Notes under the pieces: model-generated
Told to the model about the DNA's origin: nothing
Database searches by the model: none
The model's input: only the letters and a program-made list of their open reading frames with translations
Shown: piece after piece, positions 16,006 to 19,045 of the stretch
How the letters are laid out: each line of letters starts with the position of its first letter
Position numbering within the stretch: position 1 is the stretch's first letter
Source of the DNA: Cellulomonas algicola
GTDB taxonomy: Bacteria > Actinomycetota > Actinomycetes > Actinomycetales > Cellulomonadaceae
DNA: 32,478 nucleotides
Assembly (NCBI RefSeq): GCF_003851725.1
Contig: NZ_BHYL01000107.1
Span: 1 to 32,478, forward strand
Direction: 5' to 3'
Translations under genes and position numbers: made by a program

Positions 16006-16356
16006 ATGAGCGAGACCACGCAGACCCAGACGCACGGCGTCCTGCTCACGGACGTGGCGGCGGACAAGGTCCGCAGCCTGCTCGAGCAGGAGGGCCGCGA
16101 CGACCTGCGTCTGCGCGTCGCCGTCCAGCCCGGCGGCTGCTCGGGCCTCATCTACCAGCTGTACTTCGACGAGCGCCTGCTCGACGGCGACGTGACGCGT
16201 GACTACGACGGCGTCGAGGTCGTGGTCGACCGCATGAGCGTCCCCTACCTCGAGGGCGCGACGATCGACTTCGCCGACACGATCGAGAAGCAGGGCTTCA
16301 CGATCGACAACCCGAACGCGGGCTCGGCCTGCGCGTGCGGCGGCTCGTTCAGCTGA
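16006..16356 (+). CDS. erpA: A-type iron-sulfur cluster carrier, ErpA/IscA family
   Basis: 116-residue carrier that receives an Fe-S cluster and inserts it in apo-proteins. The three conserved ligand cysteines are present: one in QPGGCSGLIYQL (about residue 46) and the C-x-C pair in GSACACGGSF at the C-terminus. The family motif FTIDNPNA precedes the latter. ATG at 16006 with AGGAG 5 nt upstream (15996-16000). It is followed by the strongest stem-loop in the window. Likely clients in this region are the Rieske protein QcrA and NadA; that is inference. It converges on the TusA/desulfurase-like pair. Confidence 0.93.
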   Translation: MSETTQTQTHGVLLTDVAADKVRSLLEQEGRDDLRLRVAVQPGGCSGLIYQLYFDERLLDGDVTRDYDGVEVVVDRMSVPYLEGATIDFADTIEKQGFTIDNPNAGSACACGGSFS

Positions 16357-16446: not shown

Positions 16447-16698
16447 TCACGCGGCAGGGGCGTCCCCGAGGCGGACCGTGAGGCGCCAGACGCCCTCGCC
16501 GTCGGTGCTCGACACCATCGTGTGGCCGCGCATCCGGGCCCAGGCGGGGACGTCGTGCCGCGCCGCCGGGTCGGTCGCGAGCACCGTGAGCTCGCTCCCG
16601 GGCGCCGCGGCGCGCGCGGCCCTCGCGAGCGCGATGACGGGCGCAGGGCAGCGCAGGCCGCGTGCGTCGACCACCAGCGGGTCCGGGTCCTCGGTCAC
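16447..16698 (-). CDS. TusA-like sulfur carrier protein
   Basis: 83 residues, a complete TusA/SirA fold. The sulfur-carrying cysteine sits in DARGLRCPAPVIALARAA, the family CPxP motif, followed by ATDPAARHDVPAWARMRGH. TusA proteins accept persulfide sulfur from a cysteine desulfurase and pass it on. The GTG at 16698 overlaps the stop of the desulfurase-like gene (GTGA), so the two are translated together and probably interact. In related actinobacteria I recall annotations in which the two are fused in one polypeptide; here they are separate. Confidence 0.88.
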   Translation of the reverse strand: MTEDPDPLVVDARGLRCPAPVIALARAARAAAPGSELTVLATDPAARHDVPAWARMRGHTMVSSTDGEGVWRLTVRLGDAPAA

Positions 16699-17915
16699 AG
16701 GCCGTCCACCCCGCCCGCCGCGCGCACGCGCGCGACGACCCCCGGCAGCACGTCGAGGAACCGCTCCACGTCCTCGGCGCGCGTGCCGCGGGGGAGCGCG
16801 AGCCGCACGTTCCCGTGCGTGAGCACCCCCATGGCGGCCAGCACGTGGCTCGGCTCGAGCGAGCTCGAGGTGCACGCCGAGCCGGACGCGACCGCGAAGC
16901 CCAGCGCGTCGAGCGCGGTCACGAGGGCCTCGCCGTCCACGAACAGGGACGAGAAGGTCACGACGTGGGGGAGACGGTCGTCGGCGTCACCGACGACCTC
17001 GGTGTCGGGCACCTCGGCCGCGACGCGCGCGCGGACCCGGTCGACGAGCGCACGCCGAGCGGCGTCGGCGGCGTCCCGGTCGGCGTGCGCCACCTGCAGG
17101 GCGACCGCGGCGGCCAGCGCGGCCGGCACGCTGACACCGCCGGGGAACCAGCGGTCCTCGTCCTCGGGCGCGACCGGCGAGCGCCGGACACCGCGGCGCG
17201 TCACGAGCACGCCGATGCCCGCGGGCCCGCCCCAGTCGCCCGCGTCGGCGGCCAGCACGTCCCACGCGTCGCCGACGTCGGCGTGCCCGAGGCTCGCACC
17301 GGCGTCGACCAGCAGGGGGACCCCGGCCCGGCGCGCGGCCGCGTGGACCTCCGCGACGGGCTGCCGCGTCCCGACCTCGCCGTTCGCGTGCTGGAGCGCG
17401 GCGAGCGCCACCCCGGGCTGCCCGACGGCGTCCACCATGCGCGCGACGTCGACGCGCCCGAGCCCGTCGACCGGGACGTCGACGCGCCGGCCGCCCGACG
17501 ACGCCACCGCGGTGTCGGCCGCGTGCAGCACGGCGGCCCGCTCGACGGTCGGGACCACGACGTCGCCGCCCGCGCGCCGGCGTCCGCGCGCGACCGTGAG
17601 CACGGCCGTGTGGAGGGCCGTGGTGTGCGACGGTGCGAGGTCGACGTCCTCGGTGCGCGCGCCGACGACGGCCGCGATCGCCTCGCGCGCGCCGTCGAGC
17701 AGCAGGCGGGCACGTCGACCCTCGGCGTGCAGACGTCGCGGGTCCGCCCAGCCCTGGTCCAGCGCCTCGACGAACGCGGCCCGCGCCTGCGGCAGCAGGG
17801 GAGCGCGCCCGCCCGCGTCGAGCACCACCCGACGGACCGCTGCGGGGGCAGTGGTGTGCGTCACACCGCGGTCGTCGACGGCCGGGACCGCGGGGGCGTC
17901 GTCACGGGGGCTCAC
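16695..17915 (-). CDS. Cysteine desulfurase-like protein lacking the PLP lysine
   Basis: 406 residues with a class V aminotransferase (NifS/IscS) fold. The C-terminal active-cysteine loop SGSACTSSSLEPSHVLAAMG is nearly identical to that of IscS. The PLP site is not: where IscS has SGHKIYGPKGIG, this protein reads AGDWGGPAGIG, so the Schiff-base Lys becomes Asp and the neighbouring His becomes Gly. The ring-stacking His of TEHKAVL is Arg (VERAAVL), and the Gln of VDATQS is Ala (VDAGAS). It probably cannot act as a normal PLP desulfurase but could relay persulfide to the coupled TusA-like protein. GTG 17915 is used; another GTG at 17864 is possible. Divergent from ctaC. Confidence 0.86.
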   Translation of the reverse strand: MSPRDDAPAVPAVDDRGVTHTTAPAAVRRVVLDAGGRAPLLPQARAAFVEALDQGWADPRRLHAEGRRARLLLDGAREAIAAVVGARTEDVDLAPSHTTALHTAVLTVARGRRRAGGDVVVPTVERAAVLHAADTAVASSGGRRVDVPVDGLGRVDVARMVDAVGQPGVALAALQHANGEVGTRQPVAEVHAAARRAGVPLLVDAGASLGHADVGDAWDVLAADAGDWGGPAGIGVLVTRRGVRRSPVAPEDEDRWFPGGVSVPAALAAAVALQVAHADRDAADAARRALVDRVRARVAAEVPDTEVVGDADDRLPHVVTFSSLFVDGEALVTALDALGFAVASGSACTSSSLEPSHVLAAMGVLTHGNVRLALPRGTRAEDVERFLDVLPGVVARVRAAGGVDGL

Positions 17916-17998
17916 CGGTGCACCGTAGCCCTGACCGGCGCGGTCGTCCGCCGTGCGCGGCCCGGCCGCACGTCGTGGACGTGCGCAGGAGACGTGGT

Positions 17999-18013
17999 GT
18001 GACGGTGCTGACA
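17999..18013 (+). promoter_or_regulatory. GTGACGGTGCTGACA motif upstream of ctaC
   Basis: Lies about 60-75 bp before the predicted ctaC transcription start. It matches, with one extra base, a motif upstream of ctaE (27440-27453). It overlaps a small palindrome, ACGGTG-CTGA-CACCGT (18002-18017). A shared activator or repressor site is inferred. Confidence 0.35.
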
Positions 18014-18062
18014 CCGTGTCGTCATCCGGCGTCGCGAGGACGAAACGTCGTGGTCGGCGCGC

Positions 18063-18068: not shown

Positions 18069-18151
18069 GCACAGGTCGAGGACGAAGGTCCCGGGTGACG
18101 ACCGCCAGCAGCGGGGTCGGGCGCTGACGGGACGTGAGTGAGAGGTCCCCC

Positions 18152-19045
18152 GTGCACCCGGAACACCCCCGCCGGACGCGCCGCCCGGCCCTGCTGACGG
18201 CAGGACTCGCGGCCGTCGTCGTGGTCGCCCTGAGCGGTTGCTCCGATGAGGTCCAACGTGGCTGGCTGCCCGGCTCGTCGGACGCCGAGATCACCGACCA
18301 GACCGCCCGGATCGTCAGCCTGTGGCGCGGTTCGTGGATCGCCGCGCTCATCGTCGGCCTCATCACCTGGGGCCTGATCCTGTGGTGCGTCGCGGTCTAC
18401 CGGAAGCGCAAGAACGACGACGTGCTCCCCGTGCAGCTGCGCTACCACGTGCCGCTCGAGGTCATGTACGTGATCCTGCCGATCTTCATGGTCGGCGTGC
18501 TCTTCTACTACACGAACCGTGACGTCACGGCGCTGCAGGACACCTCCGCGGAGGCCGACATCCACGTGCAGGCCATCGGCAAGCAGTGGAGCTGGGACTT
18601 CAACTACCTCGACGACGACGCGTACGAGACGGGCCAGCACGCGCAGGACGTGGGCGGCAGCTCAGGCGCCCTGGCGGACCAGGTGACGCTGTACCTGCCG
18701 GTCGACGAGCGGGTCGAGTTCACGCTGGACTCGCGTGACGTCATCCACTCGTTCTGGATCCCCTCGTTCCTCTACAAGATGGACATGATCCCGGGGAAGA
18801 CCAACACGTTCCAGGTGACCCCCACCGAGGAGGGCACCTATCTCGGCAAGTGCGCCGAGCTCTGCGGCGAGTACCACTCGTCGATGCTGTTCAACGTGAA
18901 GGTCGTGTCCCGCGAGGAGTTCGACGCGCACATCCAGGAGCTCAAGGACAAGGGCCAGGAGGGCTCGCTGGGGCTCGAGTACAGCCGCCTGCAGGACGTC
19001 GACAGCGTCAGCAGCAGCACCACGCAGGAAGAGAGCGACCACTGA
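18152..19045 (+). CDS. ctaC: Cytochrome c oxidase subunit II
   Basis: Membrane subunit that takes electrons from the bc1 complex through the CuA centre. 297 residues. The N-terminus has a lipoprotein signal with lipobox ALSGC (Cys about residue 30). Two membrane segments follow (about 65-85 and 105-125), then the periplasm-side cupredoxin domain with the QWSWDF motif. The CuA ligands are complete in [17 protein letters not shown] 18152 is chosen because GAGAGG lies 5 nt upstream; an in-frame GTG at 18134 is the alternative. It overlaps ctaD (TGATG). The divergent neighbour is the desulfurase-like gene. Confidence 0.95.

Follow-up and report, generated by a model that had tools for sequence, protein, structure and literature searches.

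What might a cysteine desulfurase-like protein do once it has lost the lysine that binds PLP and retained the loop cysteine that carries sulfur? The question is raised by a gene of Cellulomonas algicola that lies in a stretch of 32,478 nucleotides (contig NZ_BHYL01000107.1 of assembly GCF_003851725.1), hereafter called the window. In the usual view, cysteine desulfurases are the sulfur source for Fe-S clusters and thiolated molecules, and their loop cysteine serves PLP chemistry.

Genes and intergenic elements of the locus

The desulfurase-like gene (16695..17915, minus strand) begins with a GTG codon and encodes a putative IscS/NifS-like pseudo-desulfurase of 406 amino acids with the class V aminotransferase fold. 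Its product matches the class V aminotransferase domain PF00266 (106.7 bits, cut-off 21.5) and falls below the cut-off of TIGR03402 (204.8 versus 530.75 bits), as does the lysine-bearing Streptomyces relative L043 (272.6 bits). A protein 93% identical to it is present in a Cellulomonas fimi record. The partner gene (16447..16698, minus strand) encodes a TusA-like sulfur carrier of 83 amino acids, which passes PF01206 (75.8 bits, cut-off 28.6), carries the CPxP cysteine in an RCPAP motif (Cys17), and does not reach the NCBIfam TusA equivalog NF001423 (52.1 bits versus 78). The two coding sequences share 4 nucleotides (16695-16698), an overlap that the earlier note had read correctly. On the plus strand, the divergent neighbour is ctaC, which encodes subunit II of an aa3-type cytochrome oxidase (18134..19045), and the convergent neighbour encodes the A-type Fe-S carrier ErpA (16006..16356; NF010147, 120.5 bits, cut-off 117), followed by genes for glycerate kinase and NadA.

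The longest possible open reading frame of the desulfurase-like gene would start at 18014 and encode 439 amino acids. A TAnnGTGC element (17916-17927) stands directly before the GTG codon and is conserved across the aligned Cellulomonas and Actinotalea loci. This element suggests a leaderless transcript and so argues for the start at 17915. The stretch that separates the desulfurase-like gene from ctaC also contains a 17-bp block, GTGTCAGCACCGTCACA (minus strand, 17998-18014). With three or fewer mismatches, the block recurs in 19 loci, all from Cellulomonas, of the 58 from named genomes, in three of 22 loci of family f1 and in one locus of family f31. Only 3 of 4,500 shuffled controls matched, and the block is a possible operator for the divergent pair. 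A short inverted repeat in the same intergenic stretch occurred in no more than 4 of 23 loci.

The active site of the window protein

BLASTP aligns the window protein with E. coli IscS at 27% identity and pairs its segment DVLAADAGDWGGPAGIG with DLMSFSGHKIYGPKGIG. In this alignment, Asp227 (codon 17235..17237, minus strand) falls on the Schiff-base Lys206, Gly226 on His205, Asp224 on Ser203, Ala207 on Gln183, and Arg126 on the stacking His104. A MAFFT alignment is concordant (His104 to Arg, Gln183 to Ala, Ser203 to Asp), and in it Asp180, Cys328 and Arg354 (E. coli numbering) are unchanged. Lys206 apart, columns such as His104, Gln183, Ser203, Asp180 and Arg354 are those that we take to be PLP or substrate contacts. 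The two alignments bear out what the earlier note had read by eye, namely that the Schiff-base lysine has become Asp, the adjacent His Gly, the stacking His Arg and a PLP-contact Gln Ala, with the catalytic-cysteine loop nearly unchanged.

This loop, SGSACTSSSLEPSHVLAAMG, is intact. The codons for Ser344 to Thr349 (SGSACT; 16869..16886, minus strand) encode a retained persulfide-type loop around Cys348 (codon 16872-16874), and the segment SGSACTSSSLEPSH matches the SSGSACTS-type motif that an excerpt of PMC8300815 assigns to class I cysteine desulfurases. Lys206 and Cys328 are named as E. coli IscS residues in an excerpt of PMC2854127.

The 406-residue protein contains no lysine, including the Schiff-base lysine of PLP-dependent IscS/NifS proteins, and one cysteine, Cys348; the additional part of the 439-residue frame is likewise devoid of lysine. 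The protein therefore cannot form an internal aldimine with a lysine of its own. The composition also rules out another lysine placed to bind PLP, which the earlier note had named as grounds for giving up its reading. Judging from its sequence, the gene product is very probably not a PLP-dependent desulfurase. PLP chemistry is likely covered elsewhere in this genome, which encodes SufS (above the cut-off of TIGR01979), an IscS-type enzyme beside an mnmA-like open reading frame recognised by eye, and a third class V protein, all three with an SGHK motif. Seven rhodanese matches were also found there.

The family beside ctaC

Relatives were gathered from 64 loci of named genomes, 297 genomes of the same order and 394 genomes of the class. 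Within the order, all 75 matches with E < 1e-60 were aligned, the window included; weaker matches were taken as paralogs, and one fragment was dropped. The rest of the class gave 192 matches, of which 96 were read and 93 entered the alignment. Because these 93 rows were picked to span families, 30 of them for low scores, the proportions among them are not frequencies. Sequences that were too short or had broken frames (L031, L036, L064, L069, L148, L154 and L157), another short one (L233) and a duplicate (L176, the same as G023) were dropped before counting. L066 and L071 are non-members and were excluded from the family counts, and L073 is the window itself. This left 126 lysine-less and 99 lysine-bearing rows besides the window (124 and 99 distinct), with two identical lysine-less pairs (L014/L075 and L023/L076). 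L145 was counted as having kept the cysteine, since the aligner still places a Cys in its altered loop, VGCGCTCG.

The gene lies divergent beside ctaC in 214 of the 225 relatives, namely in 123 of the 126 without the lysine and in 91 of the 99 with it. In a tree with 31 family rows, the actinobacterial family forms one clade (100/100), apart from E. coli IscS, the IscS of Archaeoglobus fulgidus and the genome's own IscS-type paralog. The closest comparison is with the lysine-bearing, ctaC-adjacent desulfurases of Actinobacteria, which are presumably active enzymes. They share with the window protein the family, the genomic place, the loop and a TusA partner, which in Streptomyces is fused. For example, L043 is 54% identical to the window protein and, unlike it, has kept the lysine, the stacking His and Ser203.

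Repeated loss of the lysine

None of the 75 rows of the window's order, one of which is the window, has kept the lysine. Outside the order, it is present in 69 of the 93 aligned rows, a sample chosen to span families. At least some members carry it in 20 of the 26 families sampled there: it is found in all rows of 18 families, in some rows of two (f45 and f54) and in no row of the remaining six.

Lysine state was placed on a tree of 142 non-redundant rows from which the active-site columns had been removed. Eight changes are needed, at least five of which are forced by starred branches, and lysine is present in the three outgroup rows. Because this quick tree leaves 49 of its 139 inner branches as open forks and includes some long ones, the losses can be counted only approximately. 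The former lysine site has changed 13 times within lysine-less clades. No replacement lysine was seen: the best lysine column is occupied in 8 of the 126 lysine-less rows, and 79 of the 126 domains have none. Conversely, 28 of the 99 lysine-bearing domains contain no lysine other than that of the active site, which indicates that these lineages shed lysines and spared that one while it was needed. On this tree, the lysine seems to have been lost repeatedly in Actinobacteria.

A separate observation concerns L214 of family f51, in which the site reads SAHMWGG. Here Met has taken the place of the lysine, but His104, Ser203 and His205 remain, and this looks like a recent loss.

Decay of the PLP site and constancy of the loop cysteine

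The cysteine column holds Cys in all 99 lysine-bearing rows and in 124 of the 126 lysine-less rows (the other two are contig ends), and it is unchanged over a branch length of ~42 substitutions per site inside lysine-less clades. In 84 non-redundant lysine-less rows, Arg354 and Glu156 (E. coli numbering) are among the invariant columns. Arg354 is kept in 100% and Asp180 in 97.6% of the non-redundant lysine-less rows. The PLP-contact columns other than the lysine have 2.04 bits more entropy in the lysine-less set, versus 0.58 for 151 comparable columns, a gain reached in 1 of 20,000 draws; the lysine-less set is more varied overall too (mean 1.71 versus 1.25 bits), and its cysteine column has an entropy of zero. 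Entropy has risen at the T76, H104, S203, H205 and K206 columns. The stacking-His column is Arg in 83 of the 126 lysine-less rows and still His in 30, a survival that counts against the pseudo-desulfurase reading. Nor is the Gln183 column a diagnostic mark: 75 of the 99 lysine-bearing rows have Gln there, as do 4 of the 126 lysine-less rows.

The ratio dN/dS is 0.06-0.29 in 15 lysine-less pairs that differ, with two further pairs identical, and 0.14-0.25 in seven lysine-bearing pairs. These findings support the proposal of the earlier note that selection in the lysine-less proteins keeps the loop cysteine and not the PLP site.

Two alternatives can be weighed against these data. Lysine-mutated PLP enzymes can hold PLP as an external aldimine, and the lysine-less proteins might by analogy be working enzymes in disguise, binding PLP without a Schiff-base lysine and acting as slow desulfurases or in other PLP chemistry. 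The persistence of Asp180 and Arg354 is in line with such an enzyme, yet the entropy gained at the five columns named above and the lack of any lysine in the window protein make it very unlikely. It is just as improbable that the gene is undergoing pseudogene-like decay after its function was lost. Decay would agree with the finding that several families of the order (for example f6, f7, f13, f14 and f19) yielded only paralog-level scores among the sampled genomes, with an internal TAG in the gene of G242, and with the lack of TusA in several lineages. However, it fits poorly with the low dN/dS values, with a divergent ctaC in nearly every lysine-less row, and with the unchanged Cys, Arg354 and Glu156 columns.

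Coupling to TusA

TusA does not adjoin the gene in 37 lysine-less loci, two of which are contig ends, and in three lysine-bearing loci; among lysine-less rows with enough flank, this amounts to 35 of 124. Where TusA does adjoin the gene, its CPxP cysteine is present in 96 of 96 lysine-bearing and 88 of 89 lysine-less loci. The exception, L145, is a second copy in the genome G159 (contig 6), with a flank that lacks ctaC. Its loop is altered (VGCGCTCGRHPSG), and in its TusA the CP cysteine motif is replaced by GNP, such that both cysteine motifs have changed together.

A PF01206 search was made of 35 genomes, comprising 28 lysine-less and two lysine-bearing ones without an adjoining TusA and five with it. 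No TusA domain was found anywhere in 11 of these 35 genomes, of which nine are lysine-less (G089, G232, G284, G274, G117, G061, G499, G358 and the 73% complete G040). All nine retain the cysteine, and a TusA relay therefore cannot be the whole job of these proteins. In the window's genome, the adjoining TusA is the only PF01206 match. Thus, the coupling to TusA that the earlier note had described is common, being present at most loci, but it is not obligatory, with 9 of the 28 lysine-less genomes searched lacking the domain altogether.

TusA is fused to the C-terminus in the Streptomyces rows. Such fusions occur in 39 lysine-bearing rows longer than 440 amino acids and also in L096, L243 and L246, which lack the lysine; fusion and lysine loss are therefore independent. 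The columns of Asp52 and Arg55, at which E. coli IscS docks TusA, are mostly kept in all groups. Because this holds even where TusA is gone, these columns do not discriminate.

E. coli IscS itself resembles the window protein in its loop, SGSACTSASLEPS, and in its TusA partner, and differs in being a PLP enzyme with Lys206. Excerpts of PMC2854127 describe its loop cysteine as docking ~4 Å from the TusA cysteine, and place TusA on one subunit of the dimer facing the loop cysteine of the other. This geometry would also suit a docking or regulatory subunit that modulates a lysine-bearing desulfurase of the cell, or TusA, by binding to it, with the cysteine loop as part of the binding surface. Retention of the loop, Arg354 and several other columns is compatible with this role. 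We nevertheless consider it improbable. The window protein and the IscS-type paralog of the genome share only 39% identity, so that a mixed dimer is unlikely, and a surface role alone leaves the long constancy of the cysteine unexplained.

Comparison with archaeal lysine-less IscS proteins

A. fulgidus IscS (PDB 4eb5, 4eb7 and 4hvk) tops the PDB matches to the window protein. It has the same IscS/NifS-like fold, the same Lys to Asp change and a retained loop cysteine. According to excerpts of PMC7585200, it is inactive as a desulfurase and its cysteine is a ligand to the [2Fe-2S] cluster of IscU, and the catalytic lysine is also absent from IscS1 of Methanosarcina acetivorans, an archaeal protein that we liken to the window protein by this description only. 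IscS-like proteins that lack the lysine and still have a working cysteine are thus of a kind already known. The A. fulgidus protein differs in that it has kept His104 and Ser203, has Leu in the Arg354 column, possesses other lysines and, in the same excerpts, has IscU rather than TusA as its partner. Moreover, A. fulgidus and E. coli IscS group together (95/85) and the actinobacterial family stands separate (100/100). Common descent is therefore not indicated; the likeness is convergent, and the change of the lysine arose separately.

The precedent makes it possible, if rather doubtful, that the window protein is a cluster-ligand scaffold of the A. fulgidus type, which would move no sulfur, dock SufU or ErpA, and offer Cys348 as an Fe-S ligand. 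Like A. fulgidus IscS, it is an IscS relative that lacks the catalytic lysine and has kept the loop cysteine; ErpA is encoded next door, the SUF cluster of the genome contains a SufU-like open reading frame (recognised by eye), and a scaffold would account for the cysteine persisting without TusA. Against it stand the convergent nature of the likeness and the position of TusA as the commoner neighbour. In addition, the neighbourhood of the window's gene showed no recognisable IscU-type gene, and no ErpA gene turned up within 6 kb at three Kribbella loci (L034, L035 and L065); the flanks of other loci are often too short to judge.

A candidate persulfide relay

The reading that we favour, with roughly even confidence for and against, is that of a PLP-free pseudo-desulfurase in which Cys348 would take up persulfide and relay the sulfur to TusA or another acceptor rather than make it. 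The protein probably descends from a TusA-coupled cysteine desulfurase that depended on PLP and was encoded beside ctaC, an arrangement that appears to persist in at least some members of 20 of the 26 families sampled outside the order. The Cellulomonas order and several further lineages would then have lost the Schiff-base lysine, and their PLP pocket would have decayed; selection presumably continued to act on the loop, on its cysteine and on the Arg that belonged to the former substrate site. Cys348 might then receive persulfide made elsewhere, by SufS, the IscS-type desulfurase or the rhodanese domains in the genome, and exchange it with Cys17 of TusA or with another acceptor; we infer both the direction and the acceptor.

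The linkage to TusA and the geometry of the E. coli IscS-TusA complex, as given in the PMC2854127 excerpts, favour the relay. The persistence of the cysteine without TusA and the A. fulgidus precedent, as described in the PMC7585200 excerpts, favour a ligand role or another partner. A bare cysteine carrier is also not fully satisfying, as Asp180 and Arg354 are kept and the need for them is not obvious. The copper site of CtaC faces outside the membrane. A role in copper-site assembly, as the earlier note had suggested, gained nothing here: the adjacency to ctaC is conserved, but no link of the protein to copper was found.

Implications

A search of the open-licence literature found no paper naming a lysine-less desulfurase family with TusA or ctaC in Actinobacteria, which does not prove absence in print. 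What is new is the repeated, order-wide actinobacterial version of a lysine-less protein with TusA. There is perhaps an even chance that in Actinobacteria a PLP-dependent desulfurase coupled to TusA has repeatedly become a thiol protein that has no Schiff-base lysine and retains a single cysteine as the last reactive group of the former active site. The result would be a recurrent class, still under selection, of PLP-free persulfide-relay or cluster-ligand proteins tied to the cytochrome oxidase locus. The name 'cysteine desulfurase' should not be taken as a function in the Cellulomonas order. It also becomes testable whether lysine-less IscS-like proteins, including the two archaeal ones in the excerpts of PMC7585200, represent a general type, and families f45 and f54, with lysine-less and lysine-bearing relatives in sister genera, offer ready experimental pairs. 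PLP has apparently been discarded several times and the cysteine kept, a natural experiment that parts the mobilisation of sulfur from its hand-over. If this reading is true, it would suggest that sulfur hand-over, and not cysteine desulfuration, is the conserved job in the lysine-bearing relatives too.
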